64,000 nt of DNA, taken from the NCBI RefSeq assembly GCF_009754905.2, contig NZ_CP066775.1, positions 2,728,001 through 2,792,000 on the forward strand. Reading direction: 5' to 3'. Source of the stretch: Mucilaginibacter ginkgonis (GTDB lineage Bacteria; Bacteroidota; Bacteroidia; Sphingobacteriales; Sphingobacteriaceae). The translations under genes and the position numbers were made by a program. Below, piece after piece: positions 14,947-39,766 of the stretch. The notes under the pieces were generated by a model that saw only the letters and a program-made list of their open reading frames with translations, did no database searches and had not been told where the DNA came from. Each line of letters opens with the position of its first letter. Position 1 is the stretch's first letter.

Positions 14947-16020
14947 ATGTTAGATAAATTAGAACTGATTAAAGAACGCTGGAAAACGGTTGAAGGCGAG
15001 TTGAGCAGCCCCGACGCGATGGCCGACATGAAGCGCTTTGCCCAACTGAGTAAAGAATATAAAGACCTTACACTTATTGTGAACGAGTATGATGTTTATA
15101 AGAATATTATGAGCAACATAAACTCGAGCAAGGAGATTTTGGCTACCGAGAAGGACGAGGAGTTTCGGGAGATGGCTAAGATGGAGCTGGATGAACTGCT
15201 GACCCAGCAGGAAGAGATGGAAGAAAAGATACGCCTGATGCTGATCCCCAAAGACCCCGAGGATGCCAAGCATGCCATTATCGAGATACGCGGTGGTACC
15301 GGCGGCGACGAGGCTGCTCTTTTTGCCGGCGACCTCTACCGTATGTACATGCGCTACTGCGAACGCCAGGGCCTGCGTACCGAATTGGTTGATTATACCG
15401 AAGGCACCGCAGGTGGCTATAAAGAGATTGTGTTTAATGTATTGGCAGATGACGCCTACGGCACGTTGAAATATGAGTCGGGGGTGCACCGTGTACAGCG
15501 CGTGCCTGATACCGAAACCCAGGGAAGGGTGCATACTTCGGCGGCGTCTGTAGTGGTACTGCCCGAGGTTGACGAGTTTGACATAGACCTTCAGGTGAGT
15601 GATATCCGTAAGGACCTGTTCTGCGCTTCGGGGCCGGGCGGGCAGTCGGTAAATACTACCTATTCGGCAGTTAGGCTTACGCACATCCCTACTGGTATCG
15701 TCGCCCAGTGCCAGGACCAGAAGTCGCAGCTGAAAAACTATGACAAGGCCTTACAGGTATTGCGCAGCCGTGTATACGAAATGGAATTGCAGAAACACAT
15801 GGAGGAGGTTTCTAAAAAACGCAAAACCATGGTATCTACCGGCGACCGCTCTGCCAAAGTACGCACCTACAACTACCCGCAAGGGCGCGTAACAGAGCAC
15901 CGCATAGGTTTAACCATATACAATTTGCCTAATGTAATGAACGGCGACTTGCAGGAAATTATGGAATCGCTGCAGTTTGCAGAGAACGCAGAAAAGCTGA
16001 AAGAGGGTACGGTAGCGTAA
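14947..16020 (+). CDS. prfA: Peptide chain release factor 1
   Basis: 357 residues. RF1 ends translation at UAA and UAG. The codon-reading tripeptide PxT is seen as PDT at residues 187-189 within [17 protein letters not shown], which separates it from RF2 (SPF). The catalytic GGQ is at 231-233 in [20 protein letters not shown]-terminal helical domain 1 is a little short compared with E. coli, as in other Bacteroidota. Start ATG at 14947. tRNA-Asp lies 59 bp downstream. Confidence 0.97.
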
Positions 16021-16033
16021 TTTTTAAAATATT

Positions 16034-16064
16034 TTTGAGAATATAAGCCGAAACTCTATATTTG
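16034..16064 (+). promoter_or_regulatory. Promoter of tRNA-Asp
   Basis: TTTG (16034-16037), a 19-nt spacer, then TATATTTG (16057-16064). This is an exact match to the Bacteroidota primary-sigma promoter TTTG-N19-21-TAnnTTTG. Transcription would start near 16071, about 9 nt before the tRNA. Confidence 0.85.
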
Positions 16065-16079
16065 CATTCCCAAACGGGA

Positions 16080-16153
16080 GGAGTGGTAGTTCAGCTGGTT
16101 AGAATACATGCCTGTCACGCATGGGGTCGCGGGTTCGAGTCCCGTCCATTCCG
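16080..16153 (+). tRNA. tRNA-Asp (GTC)
   Basis: 74-nt cloverleaf: acceptor GGAGTGG pairs with CCATTCC (one G-U), D-arm GTTC..GAA, anticodon stem CATGC/GCATG with loop CTGTCAC (anticodon GTC), T-arm GCGGG-TTCGAGT-CCCGT, discriminator G at 16153. CCA is not encoded. A promoter and an intrinsic terminator flank it closely. Its 3' end and terminator are duplicated at 16525-16572. Confidence 0.96.
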
Positions 16154-16190
16154 CTAAGAAGCCTTTAGATGATATCTGAAGGCTTTTTTT
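16143..16190. repeat. Direct repeat, left copy (tRNA-Asp 3' end plus terminator)
   Basis: 48 bp from the T-arm/acceptor of tRNA-Asp (CGTCCATTCCGCT) through the terminator T-run. The copy at 16525-16572 is identical at 44 of 48 positions. The pair bounds 334 bp holding one GIY-YIG gene, as attL/attR sites do around elements integrated into tRNA 3' ends. Confidence 0.85.
16161..16190 (+). terminator. Intrinsic terminator of tRNA-Asp
   Basis: Stem GCCTTTAGAT / ATCTGAAGGC (16161-16170, 16174-16183) with one G-T pair, followed by seven T residues to 16190. Six bases later the GIY-YIG gene starts. Confidence 0.9.
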
Positions 16191-16195
16191 GTTGA

Positions 16196-16465
16196 ATGGC
16201 TTTTTACGTTTACATTATCCAGAGTCAGGTTGAAGGAAGCTTTTATAAAGGCTTTTCAGAAAATCCCGTGCAAAGACTTGCGCAGCATAACGACGGTAGT
16301 GCTACTTACACGTCAAGAAAAATTCCATGGAAACTTGTTTATGTAGAAGAGTTTCCATCAAAACAAGAGGCTTTAATTCGCGAGAAAAATTTAAAGAATG
16401 CTACCATCGAACGAATTAACGCATTGATAAATCACCCAAAAAATATCGTGGCGAGGTTAGAATAA
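16196..16465 (+). CDS. Single-domain GIY-YIG nuclease
   Basis: 89 residues, almost entirely one GIY-YIG endonuclease domain (YhbQ/UPF0213 type): the family motif is seen as YVYIIQS..YKGF (GIY-YIG equivalent), then Arg27 in NPVQRLAQHN, SRKIPWKLVYVEEF, and the catalytic Glu in KQEALIREKNLK. The ATG comes 6 nt after the tRNA-Asp terminator T-run, with no room for a promoter, so expression needs read-through from the tRNA promoter. The gene lies between 48-bp copies of the tRNA 3' end. Biological role of these small nucleases is not settled; some cut branched or damaged DNA. Confidence 0.85.
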   Translation: MAFYVYIIQSQVEGSFYKGFSENPVQRLAQHNDGSATYTSRKIPWKLVYVEEFPSKQEALIREKNLKNATIERINALINHPKNIVARLE

Positions 16466-16477
16466 TAGGGCTTGTCA

Positions 16478-16526
16478 TCCCCACAGTAATGTGGGGACGG
16501 GTACTCCCCACAGCCTTGTGGGGACG
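16478..16526. repeat. Tandem hairpin pair next to the right direct repeat
   Basis: Two 22-nt units of the form TCCCCACA-N4-TGTGGGGA-CG at 16478-16499 and 16505-16526, period 27 bp. Arms are perfect in both; only the 4-nt loops differ (GTAA, GCCT). The second unit runs straight into the right-hand tRNA repeat, sharing its first bases. Confidence 0.75.
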
Positions 16527-16572
16527 TCCATTCCGCTTAGAGGTCTTTAGATAATATCTGAAGGCTTTTTTT
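16525..16572. repeat. Direct repeat, right copy (tRNA-Asp 3' end plus terminator)
   Basis: 48-bp copy of 16143-16190 with four substitutions, two of them in the terminator stem (GTCTTTAGAT / ATCTGAAGGC keeps pairing through G-T). It lacks the rest of the tRNA, so it is not a tRNA gene. It acts as a terminator downstream of the GIY-YIG gene. Confidence 0.85.
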
Positions 16573-16668
16573 GTGCTGGTGGCATTACTGGTATGTTGAG
16601 ATTTAATTCTGCCTGAATGATCGTCCTATTCCCCCCAAACCTAAACCCCTCCTGCTGGTTGTCATTGT

Positions 16669-16890
16669 ATGAGCAGGGCATTTGTAAAAGAAGGTGAGAG
16701 CGACCAACTGAAGGATGTGGCGCCTAATATGGCTTCGCTGCAGTTTTTTCTGAAACGCGAGAATGGCTACACCATTACCGAAATGAGAACACGCTTTAGC
16801 GAGCAGTTTCAGCGCGAGGTACATGATATGAGCGACGGCCTTAGCTATGGCCTTAATGATGCCAACCAGTGGCAGGTATACCTCGACTAA
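16669..16890 (+). CDS. Small conserved-type protein, function unknown
   Basis: 73 residues beginning MSRAFVKEGESDQLKDV. The N-terminal MSRAFVKE.E pattern recurs in small Bacteroidota proteins of unknown role, which supports this being real; the rest (SLQFFLKRENGYTITEMR) has no motif I recognise. Charged, no signal peptide or membrane span. Its TAA is immediately followed by the stop of the convergent gene (no spacer). Confidence 0.6.
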   Translation: MSRAFVKEGESDQLKDVAPNMASLQFFLKRENGYTITEMRTRFSEQFQREVHDMSDGLSYGLNDANQWQVYLD

Positions 16891-17221: not shown

Positions 17222-18094
17222 TTACACTTGCTCTGTTATTTGTTGATGATTGGGATAATAGTTTCGCCATCGCCGCCTGAGGGGTCCGGATTCCCGGTGT
17301 GCTGCCTGTGGTGTCATCATATCTATACTGCTGTGCGGCCTTAAGTTGTTGTAAGTATTTATAGCGCTGCGTACCGCACGTGTTGCACCGCTCAGGTTTT
17401 TGTAAGCCTCATTTAACAGTTCAAGTTTAAGTATACCGTTTACACGTTCTGCAATGGCATTATCACGCGGGTTCCCGCTTTGGGTCATACTGATACCAAT
17501 GCCTTCTTTGATCAAAAGTGCTGTATAGGTACCGCTGCAATATTGCGTGCCGCGATCCGAATGATGGATCAGCGGGGTGTCGGGTTGCTTTTGTGATAAG
17601 GCCATTTCAAGTGCTGTAAGGCAGCTGCCGGTAGAAAGATCATGGCTCAGACAGAAGCCAATGATCTTTCGGCTGTAAGCATCCGTGACCAGGCTCAGGT
17701 AAGCAAAGCCCTGCCCCACGCGGATGTAAGTGATATCGCTCACCCACAGCCGCCCCGGCGCTGCAGGCACCAGGCCGCCCGTCAGGTCGGGGTATTTCTT
17801 AAAGCGGTGGCAGGAAAAGGTGGTACGCGTACGGTATATTTTCCTGCGCACCAGCAAGCCGTTTTCTCTCAAAAGCTCAAAGAATGCATCCCGCCCTATG
17901 CCGGGCCGTATCAGTTCAAGCAGTTTCCTTGCACCCAGCCGCGGCTGGCGGCGACGGTGTGCCATTACTTGCTGAATGATTTCTTCTTGTTTAAAAGTCC
18001 GCATTTCTGTGGACCGGTGATGCTGGTAATAGGCTTGTGAACTGTAACCAAGCAGTCTGCATAACTCGCGCAGCCCGCGGCTGCGTTTTTGCAT
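17222..18094 (-). CDS. IS3-family transposase OrfB (DDE integrase core), copy 1
   Basis: 290 residues. N-terminal HTH_21-like part (MAHRRRQPRLGARKLLELI) followed by the rve/DDE catalytic core: first Asp in LWVSDITYIRVG, second Asp in PLIHHSDRGTQYCS, and Glu in NPRDNAIAERVNGILKLELL. Made mainly as an OrfAB fusion by -1 frameshifting; it also has its own ATG at 18094. Identical to the copy at 40881-41753. Confidence 0.95.
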   Translation of the reverse strand: MQKRSRGLRELCRLLGYSSQAYYQHHRSTEMRTFKQEEIIQQVMAHRRRQPRLGARKLLELIRPGIGRDAFFELLRENGLLVRRKIYRTRTTFSCHRFKKYPDLTGGLVPAAPGRLWVSDITYIRVGQGFAYLSLVTDAYSRKIIGFCLSHDLSTGSCLTALEMALSQKQPDTPLIHHSDRGTQYCSGTYTALLIKEGIGISMTQSGNPRDNAIAERVNGILKLELLNEAYKNLSGATRAVRSAINTYNNLRPHSSIDMMTPQAAHRESGPLRRRWRNYYPNHQQITEQV

Positions 18095-18096
18095 GC

Positions 18097-18405
18097 TTAC
18101 TCCGACTGCCTGGTGCCAGACTTTTTTCTGATGTTGGTACCCAGCTCCTTATCTGCTATATCTATGATGTTATTCAGCAGCTCATTCTTTAGCTGCTCTG
18201 TCCGTAACATCGCTTTCAATAAAGACACATCATCGGGAAGAACTGTCTTCTTCGAACTTCTCAATGCCTTTTCGTTTAACTTGTCCTTGTTCACTATGCG
18301 GGAAATAGTTGTGGGTGATACGCCGTACTTTTTTGCTAAGGTACGCAAACTCTTACCCATGATCTCACGCTCATGTATGATACGCTCCGCTTTCCATTTG
18401 TCCAT
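18097..18405 (-). CDS. IS3-family OrfA (helix-turn-helix), copy 1
   Basis: 102 residues. The helix-turn-helix is RTLAKKYGVSPTTISRIVNK (about 19-38), used for binding the element ends. A leucine-rich stretch follows (LLKAMLRTEQLKNELLNNII) that would mediate oligomerisation. It ends in RKKSGTRQSE just past the slippery site where a -1 shift enters orfB. Confidence 0.92.
   Translation of the reverse strand: MDKWKAERIIHEREIMGKSLRTLAKKYGVSPTTISRIVNKDKLNEKALRSSKKTVLPDDVSLLKAMLRTEQLKNELLNNIIDIADKELGTNIRKKSGTRQSE
18121..18127 (-). promoter_or_regulatory. Programmed -1 frameshift site (A AAA AAG)
   Basis: On the minus strand the heptamer is read A-AAA-AAG in the orfA frame. The -1 frame from here is open and runs without a stop into orfB through its ATG, so slippage yields an OrfAB fusion transposase. 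The equivalent in copy 2 is 41780-41786. Confidence 0.85.
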
Positions 18406-39180: not shown

Positions 39181-39470
39181 ATAAGAGAATTGCAAGATCC
39201 CCCTCTTGAGAGGGGCGGGTAAGACTGTGCTGTGGCAGGATTGTGTACTTCAGTAAACAACACATCCCTAACTCCTCTCAAGAGGGGAATGAAAAACATC
39301 CTCCTTTTGGAATGTCCCATTGAGGTTGCCGAAGTTTTGGGTAAGGCAAGCAGAACCTCTCCCCAACCCCTCTCCAAAGGAGAGGAGCTAGACGTCTGCC
39401 CGTCATGCCGAACTTGTTTCGGCATCCCATTTATAGACGCTCGCTTTACCAAGGAAGTTGCGAGGGATAT
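39181..39470. other. Gap with CCCCTCT-type hairpin repeats
   Basis: No gene. Contains CCCCCTCTTGAGAGGGG (39199-39215), an inverted partner CCTCTCAAGAGGGG at 39275-39288, CCTCTCCAAAGGAGAGG (39370-39386), and an ATGCCGAA..TTCGGCAT hairpin (39403-39425), the same hairpin type found beside copies A and C of repeat family 1. The first hairpin may end the DUF4407 transcript but has no T-run. Confidence 0.55.
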
Positions 39471-39614: not shown

Positions 39615-39766
39615 GTAACAAAATTTAGTTTTGACAAAAATTCTTCTTCGCCGGCCGACGGATTTAAATGACAAAAAAGAAATGTCCTTTGAGATCCCGA
39701 AACAAGTTCGGGATGACTTTAAAAATTGAATTGCTGTTAAGTAAAAGTCTCTGCAAATAATCCGCT

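Follow-up and report, generated by a model that had tools for sequence, protein, structure and literature searches.

Organisation of the prfA-tRNA-Asp locus

The window (the whole 64,000-nucleotide stretch of DNA that was analysed) is drawn from the complete 3.70-Mb genome that is home to the unit described here. A release factor gene is followed by an intact tRNA-Asp gene, a short nuclease gene and an altered second copy of the tRNA sequence. The features of the locus are:

14947..16020 (+): ORF for release factor 1, which we take to be prfA from its protein (ORF list); conserved upstream neighbour, used as the anchor for finding empty sites
16057..16064 (+): TATATTTG, possible -7 element of the tRNA-Asp promoter (sequence)
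16080..16154 (+): intact tRNA-Asp(gtc), the proposed docking site (ARAGORN); empty loci carry an identical tRNA
16143..16192 (+): direct repeat, upstream copy, comprising the tRNA 3' end and terminator
16155..16192 (+): first terminator-like hairpin, with a T run (sequence)
16196..16465 (+): GIY-YIG nuclease gene, 89 amino acids, single domain (ORF list, Pfam PF01541)
16455..16536 (+): pseudo-tRNA-Asp, D-loop through 3' end, whose beginning overlaps the last codons of the ORF, with arms exchanged for hairpins
16478..16497 (+): hairpin 1, TCCCCACAGTAATGTGGGGA, which replaces the anticodon 3' strand and variable loop and is preceded by TGTCA
16505..16524 (+): hairpin 2, TCCCCACAGCCTTGTGGGGA, within the T-arm
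16525..16574 (+): direct repeat, downstream copy, comprising the tRNA 3' end and terminator
16539-16569: terminator stem inside the downstream repeat (terminator scan)

A preliminary description of this DNA had reported a duplicated tRNA-Asp 3' end and terminator, enclosing a lone 89-residue GIY-YIG gene and two hairpins, with the ORF starting a few nucleotides past the first terminator; all of this was borne out. The repeats at 16143-16192 and 16525-16574 are 92% identical over 50 nt with a spacing of 382, and their local-alignment score of 80 compares with a maximum of 24 in 100 shuffles. The GIY-YIG gene is the sole long ORF between them and an integrase gene is absent there. The hairpin at 16155..16192 failed the terminator/promoter scan of the locus; a terminator-like hairpin of the same type lies behind tRNA-Asp in genome G033. 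The prfA product is 79-93% identical to those of seven further prfA-tRNA-Asp loci (tblastn).

The ORF had also been said to be obliged to borrow the tRNA promoter. The consensus for the Bacteroidota -7 element is TAnnTTTG, and the sole sigma-70-like match in 15900-16700 precedes the tRNA, but shuffled sequences yield equally many matches; transcription of the nuclease ORF from the tRNA promoter is therefore no more than plausible. About 650 bp behind the unit, on the reverse strand, lie two adjoining ORFs of 290 and 102 amino acids (17222-18405), which by eye resemble a two-frame transposase.

A pseudo-tRNA-Asp with hairpins in place of tRNA arms

The segment behind the nuclease gene is more than the copied tRNA 3' end that had been described: it is a pseudo-tRNA-Asp that can be aligned from nucleotide 18 of the tRNA (D-loop, GGTTAGAATA), a point within the last codons of the ORF. 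In several relatives (e.g. loci L009, L072, L088 and L133) the stop codon of the ORF is the TAG of the tRNA D-loop sequence GGTTAG. Perfect TCCCCACA-N4-TGTGGGGA hairpins take the place of the anticodon 3' strand of the pseudo-tRNA and, in the window, of part of the T-arm as well, such that the order is anticodon, TGTCA, TCCCCACAGTAATGTGGGGA, CGGGT, T-arm hairpin, CGTCCATTCCGC and terminator. Both tRNA 3' copies in the window are of the host type (CGTCCATTCCGC). Folded as single-stranded DNA, the pseudo-tRNA segment has a z of -3.57, and none of 200 shuffles was equally stable.

The same hairpin-substituted design is found in relatives, in which the hairpin replaces mainly the anticodon arm and, in the tRNA-Asp and tRNA-Met types, starts just 3' of the anticodon. 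It was present by eye in 19 of the 26 tRNA-Asp-labelled genes, and a looser scripted count that includes A/T-rich stems gave 43/75. The second, T-arm hairpin is shared with L076, L077 and L081, and similar stems occur at other isotypes (TCCGTTGGCTAACGGA in tRNA-Met units, TCCCGATTTTACATCGGGA in tRNA-Val units). We aligned 17 distinct tRNA-Asp-type hairpins, one per locus, leaving out identical ones (L069, L073, L084, L193), second T-arm hairpins and L074. Seven pairs were formed in 119/119 cells, 23 of which were compensatory; none of 500 shuffles matched the real score and slid controls paired in at most 55% of cells. The tRNA-Asp-type hairpin is thus kept as a structure.

The window hairpin has an 8-bp stem and a 4-nt loop with TGTC(A) ahead of it, a tag that could be the tRNA anticodon-loop sequence itself. 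A search of the 3.70-Mb host genome with the hairpin pattern TCCCCACANNNNTGTGGGGA gave two matches and no dispersed copies; the possibility that the hairpin is a dispersed host repeat was rejected, as both matches lie at the window unit. No inverted palindrome pair surrounds the gene in the window, where the repeats are the direct tRNA repeats.

The nuclease is a single-domain GIY-YIG protein

The 89-residue protein has PF01541 (GIY-YIG) as its only Pfam match (E 2.9e-17), and a separate DNA-recognition domain is absent; no NCBIfam family matches it. The catalytic-type residues Y4, Y6, Y17, G19, R27, H31 and E63 are invariant in 21 chosen tRNA-Asp-type proteins, and a structure predicted from 21 relatives had a mean pLDDT of 90.3. 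The nearest solved structures are the UPF0213 protein BH0048 (1zg2) and the branched-DNA nuclease SLX1 (6seh, 7cq2), both in sequence searches (1zg2 E 2.7e-14; SLX1 from E 8.7e-8) and with Foldseek (UPF0213 E 3.7e-5; SLX1 about 3e-4), I-TevI being far weaker. By sequence and predicted fold, the protein therefore appears to belong with the UPF0213/SLX1 nuclease group; it is a putative DNA-cutting enzyme. SLX1 is a repair enzyme with the partner SLX4, whereas the window nuclease is a lone gene with a palindrome beside it. Among 13 nuclease pairs, the five with usable dS gave dN/dS values of 0.03-0.11, which points to purifying selection in the measured pairs. PADLOC, a defence-system search, gave no match to the unit, and a defence system was rejected on that basis.

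The unit recurs at tRNA genes of many isotypes

Similarity to the window protein was the basis for gathering 161 distinct genes, of which 131 came from the genomes of the host and its relatives and 30 from a genome contig collection; the set excludes two short contig-end matches (in G005 and G011), and L094 and L095 have no domain match. A same-strand tRNA lies within 200 nt upstream of 43/161 genes and within 200 nt downstream of 12/161, and opposite-strand tRNAs were found at 0/161 in either position. A T-arm motif precedes 60 of the 161 genes, compared with 3 on the antisense strand. The number of tRNA-linked genes depends on the definition (76 loose; 66 labelled, with 13 isotypes in all; 69 in the tree set, six rows of which were hand-marked), and 27/161 genes have neither a tRNA nor a flanking repeat by label, which counts against a selfish unit.

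In a protein tree of 154 domains, built from few columns and with a FastTree warning of long branches meeting, the isotype and repeat labels need 40 changes, compared with a shuffled mean of 85.0 and no shuffle of 200 as low. The clade of the window protein contains 26 rows, all of them tRNA-Asp units (20 automatic labels, 6 by hand), and 2/22 tRNA-Asp labels (L013, L184) fall outside it. The Met, Val and Leu(taa) labels nearly form clades and the Arg and Pro labels are scattered. The nuclease clades therefore largely follow tRNA isotype. Members of the genus differ in which tRNA the unit adjoins, and the host itself carries a second such unit behind tRNA-Met (L002).

The architecture of the unit is nuclease ORF, pseudo-tRNA with hairpin, then tRNA 3' end and terminator. 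A species-level genome collection yielded 28 homologues, 20 of them at loci with tRNA-Asp, and in 15 of these 20 the homologue match begins 32-50 nt behind the tRNA-Asp. A search of 395 phylum genomes, including the host, revealed two further close homologues (E <= 1e-20), each with a hairpin-bearing pseudo-tRNA-Asp behind the ORF and a tRNA-Asp ahead of it (by 38 nt in one case and about 400 nt in the other). The reverse search, with the pseudo-tRNA motif alone across 395 class genomes, gave 11 matches in five genomes (reversed control 0), and at 11/11 of them the motif follows the end of a GIY-YIG domain by 57-80 nt; this strict motif pattern does not match the host's own unit. The preliminary suggestions of a tRNA-targeted unit that does without an integrase, and of further GIY-YIG genes behind tRNAs with duplicated tRNA sequence, were thus upheld: the unit recurs across many loci and isotypes and such genes are common. 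Genes of the family away from tRNAs, which if equally frequent and free of repeats had been named as speaking against the idea, are indeed frequent, but they belong mostly to other clades with another kind of flanking repeat.

Some aspects of the unit vary. Duplication of the terminator as a general rule is unsupported, as the terminator/spacer duplication score exceeded 0.5 in only 13/38 loci, and in 25/38 the tRNA-ORF spacer had no clear downstream copy. Two genomes (G700 and G652) carry arrays of two to four units, and some relatives are truncated (e.g. L089 and L090). A mirror arrangement, in which the intact tRNA lies behind the gene and the partial copy ahead of it, was seen at L012, L037, L087 and L163 (tRNA-Thr, -Ser, -Asp and -Ser, respectively). 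Phage records gave 13 matches at 35-37% identity. Viral carriage was rejected because the 10 pattern matches in IMG/VR contigs included none confirmed as a relative at the sensitivity of the search.

Empty sites and patchy distribution

Using 30 fetched tRNA-Asp loci and other loci in hand, we found prfA adjoining tRNA-Asp in seven genomes of the genus, with the site occupied in the window host and empty in the other six (G002, G007, G023, G029, G031 and G033). Empty sites, which the preliminary description had proposed to look for, thus exist among relatives. The upstream tRNA-Asp of the window is intact and identical to that at empty loci such as those of G031 and G033. In the empty locus of G033 (L039), prfA is followed by a tandem pair of tRNA-Asp genes whose terminators are similar.

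The distribution of close homologues is patchy: at E < 1e-20, G029 is the only one of 36 same-genus relatives with a homologue, and at E <= 1e-20 there are homologues in 3/395 phylum genomes, host included. Among 60 searched relatives 12 had no match whatever, which counts against a selfish unit. In the species-level collection three of the four closest homologues (70-75% identity) are from Chitinophagaceae. This patchiness suggests that the unit moves horizontally; the sample holds one genome per species, such that gain and loss within a species are not visible in it. Relocation off the tRNA was considered for G029, where a 59% homologue lies away from the empty prfA-tRNA-Asp locus, and was set aside because its flanks equally fit a decayed second tRNA-Asp locus.

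Neighbouring copies have diverged at many synonymous positions at L068 (dS 3.9, saturated; dN/dS 0.03) and L077 (dS 1.04; dN/dS 0.10), although in each pair one copy is enclosed by tRNA-terminator repeats that show no difference over 45 and 48 nt, respectively. The explanation is either the arrival of a second unit at the site already occupied or homogenisation of the repeats.

Relatives away from tRNA genes are often flanked by palindromes

The inverted-flank score was above threshold for 52/90 non-tRNA genes, compared with 3/390 shifted positions at the same loci. Five GTCA-tagged or related motif classes lie beside 62/85 non-tRNA genes and 0/69 tRNA-linked genes, and the palindrome class tracks the nuclease clade (5 changes versus a mean of 34.2 and a minimum of 30 in 100 shuffles); the palindrome patterns were composed after viewing the flanks, and the tree was built from protein sequence alone. 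The host, which has six GIY-YIG family genes at the search threshold, carries one GTCAT class as 35 exact copies (control 0), and a GIY-YIG gene at 209.6 kb lies between two of them.

Searching a plasmid collection yielded 32 records, and 14 of the 15 that were fetched are from outside Bacteroidota. Inverted flanking repeats above shuffles were present at 13/15 of the fetched genes, with GTCA or CGTC in 11, e.g. CGTCATCCTCGGGCTTGACCCGAGGATCCA in Shinella, CGTCATCCCCGCGAAGGCGGGGATCCAGG in Azospirillum lipoferum and a CGTCATTCCC form in Neisseria. The remaining two of the 15, from Photobacterium and Rhizobium tumorigenes, had no flanking repeats, which counts against the selfish reading. The best reading of these data is that the window unit belongs to a larger family in which a nuclease is paired with a palindrome.

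Three loci of this kind were observed in passing. At L214 (Azospirillum lipoferum AZO_p3 255118-256178) sufB and sufC are separated by a GIY-YIG gene with flanking REPs, which looks like an insertion into the suf operon. At L205 (Planktothrix agardhii plasmid p1 18441-19522) a relative has an MmeI-type restriction gene on one side and drmA of DISARM on the other, and its flanking inverted repeat has no GTCA tag. Within the window itself, an inverted pair of GTCATnCCGAACTTGTTTCGGnAT palindromes about 270 bp apart (39402-39425 on the plus strand, 39694-39717 on the minus strand) has no GIY-YIG gene and is perhaps a REP-flanked unit in non-autonomous or emptied form.

Discussion

We consider the unit to be, more likely than not, a minimal selfish element consisting of a single-domain, SLX1-like GIY-YIG nuclease and a palindromic hairpin, docked at a tRNA gene. 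This reading draws on (i) the strand bias of upstream tRNAs, the isotype clades, the 11/11 reverse search, the conservation of the hairpin and the empty sites, and (ii) the low dN/dS, the invariant catalytic-type residues, the arrays, the inverted palindromes beside non-tRNA relatives and the SLX1/UPF0213 structures. Against it stand the unaltered upstream tRNA beside the nuclease, the lack of dispersed hairpins and the lack of inverted flanks at the window unit, as well as the many loci with an unduplicated spacer (25/38) and the labels that stray from their clades (Arg, Pro, L013 and L184). Mobility is what the sequence comparisons would imply. In the mechanism we envisage, the nuclease would nick or cut either the hairpin DNA or the corresponding part of an unoccupied tRNA gene, after which recombination repair by the host would copy the unit in behind the tRNA. 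The tRNA would stay functional, since its 3' end and terminator are either supplied or duplicated by the unit; the hairpin would disable the displaced copy as a tRNA and mark the end of the element. Recombination between the tRNA 3' repeats could later expand arrays, homogenise repeats or remove the unit.

The main rival is a plain free-standing homing endonuclease resembling SegB, which would cut the anticodon-arm DNA of an empty tRNA allele and be copied by repair, with the hairpin doing nothing other than making the displaced copy uncuttable. Such an enzyme would explain why clades follow isotype, why hairpins replace mainly the anticodon arm, why empty prfA-tRNA-Asp sites exist and why the arrays resemble those made by SegB. 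A model in which insertion would destroy the cut site is at odds with the upstream tRNA, which is intact and matches that of empty tRNA-Asp loci exactly, such that the supposed target is neither disrupted nor protected. The window protein also has no separate DNA-binding domain, its fold is closer to SLX1 than to I-TevI, and its sister clades go with palindromes and not with a conserved gene. We regard plain homing as doubtful. The preliminary proposal of a homing-type or self-spreading mini-element, or the remnant of one, is upheld in part, in that the unit recurs at tRNA genes.

The other alternatives have less in their favour. That the nuclease is a domesticated host function, retained to repair DNA or to stabilise the tRNA locus, would suit the purifying selection in the measured pairs and the UPF0213/SLX1 kinship, but is quite unlikely given the patchy presence (G029 alone of 36 same-genus relatives, 3/395 phylum genomes) and the use of different tRNAs within one genus. 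A system acting at the RNA level, in which the protein would target tRNA, with the transcribed pseudo-tRNA serving as decoy or inhibitor in the manner of a toxin-antitoxin pair, could account for a pseudo-tRNA that retains its T-arm, loses its anticodon stem and has a stem conserved as structure; it is very unlikely, as the nearest structures are those of DNA nucleases, sister genes have REP-type DNA palindromes and no tRNA copy (motifs at 62/85, against 0/69 tRNA-linked genes) and PADLOC found no match. Least credible of all is a dead remnant, or a chance tandem duplication of a tRNA end around an unrelated gene. The truncated relatives (L089, L090) show that decay happens, and many loci have no duplicated terminator, but recurrence, strand bias, clade fidelity, purifying selection and the 11/11 reverse search contradict this reading for the family, and it can hold only for single decayed loci.

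Several known systems share part of the design of the proposed selfish element. Integrative elements at tRNA 3' ends (ICE, IME or island) are likewise enclosed by direct repeats of the tRNA 3' end, but the window unit has no integrase gene between its repeats. GIY-YIG homing endonucleases have the catalytic domain, its residues and empty alleles in common with the unit, which lacks a recognition domain and, if its target is the tRNA gene, neither removes nor protects the carrier's tRNA. Phage SegB is a GIY-YIG enzyme beside tRNA genes, where recombination yields tandem tRNA-nuclease arrays (PMC13096335, in the part available); enzyme class, tRNA setting and arrays are alike, whereas SegB genes are phage genes, that part of the source mentions no pseudo-tRNA with hairpins, and the comparison is one of description, not of sequence. 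Fungal mitochondrial mORFs, such as that of Glomus atp9 with its GIY-YIG ORF, provide the gene they invade with a new 3' end; the endonuclease ORF lies behind a gene with two copies of its 3' end, of which the old one has been pushed downstream (PMC3630166, available sections). They differ in that they enter organelle protein genes, with no hairpin-substituted copy mentioned in those sections, whereas the window unit sits at a bacterial tRNA gene; as to replacement of the 3' end in the manner of mORFs, both window copies are host-type, and the spacer is duplicated in 13/38 loci.

In logic the parallel is with REP systems that have a dedicated enzyme. In the RAYT/TnpA-REP system (GTAG REPs), as outlined in the available text of PMC3733652, short palindromes are accompanied by a dedicated single-gene enzyme; the window unit also combines a short palindrome with a single enzyme gene, but its enzyme is GIY-YIG (only PF01541 in Pfam) and theirs is an HUH tyrosine transposase. 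The same portion of that paper describes a CGTC superfamily of REPs, apparently without a dedicated transposase, in hosts including S. meliloti, A. lipoferum, N. aromaticivorans and Neisseria (Di Nocera et al. 2013, PMC3733652). Palindromes of this form flank sister genes in species named there as hosts, and the window hairpin is close to the CGTC-1 form as given there (8-bp stem, 4-nt loop, TGTC ahead). By this analogy the window hairpin resembles a CGTC REP whose TGTC tag would come from the tRNA anticodon loop. We speak of resemblance and not of membership because the unit is without inverted flanks and without dispersed copies; unlike CGTC REPs, the window hairpins are non-dispersed, lie inside a pseudo-tRNA and form no inverted pair.

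We lean, if only slightly, towards a more general proposal: that single-domain GIY-YIG nucleases supply the dedicated enzyme missing from the CGTC REPs, in Bacteroidota, Proteobacteria and beyond, and that several lineages made tRNA genes their palindromic ends, one isotype each, with a hairpin-substituted pseudo-tRNA. The data name a candidate enzyme for CGTC REPs, with a repeat class that tracks the nuclease clade, and a candidate second life-style at tRNA genes. If true, such elements would make up a separate class of minimal mobile DNA that spares an essential gene in a way peculiar to itself, and the question can be put directly to test with an 89-residue protein and a 20-nt hairpin. Among the literature matches listed, mostly outside subscription journals, none links bacterial GIY-YIG genes to CGTC REPs or pseudo-tRNAs, and the combination of a GIY-YIG enzyme, REP-like hairpins and pseudo-tRNAs is absent from those matches.

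The proposal would also account for many 'GIY-YIG nuclease family protein' annotations and for some predicted tRNAs that are pseudo-tRNAs. ARAGORN calls pseudo-tRNAs as genes at L192 (1281-1355) and behind the ORF at L020 and L157, as tRNA-Ala(cgc) and tRNA-Stop(tta), and calls of this type may sit in public annotation. Additional hairpin-bearing tRNA copies lie ahead of an intact tRNA at L071 (2787-2842), L090 (2810-2849), L192 (~1309) and L013 (456-506, reverse); these may be units displaced at an earlier time, or solitary copies that have no nuclease gene.
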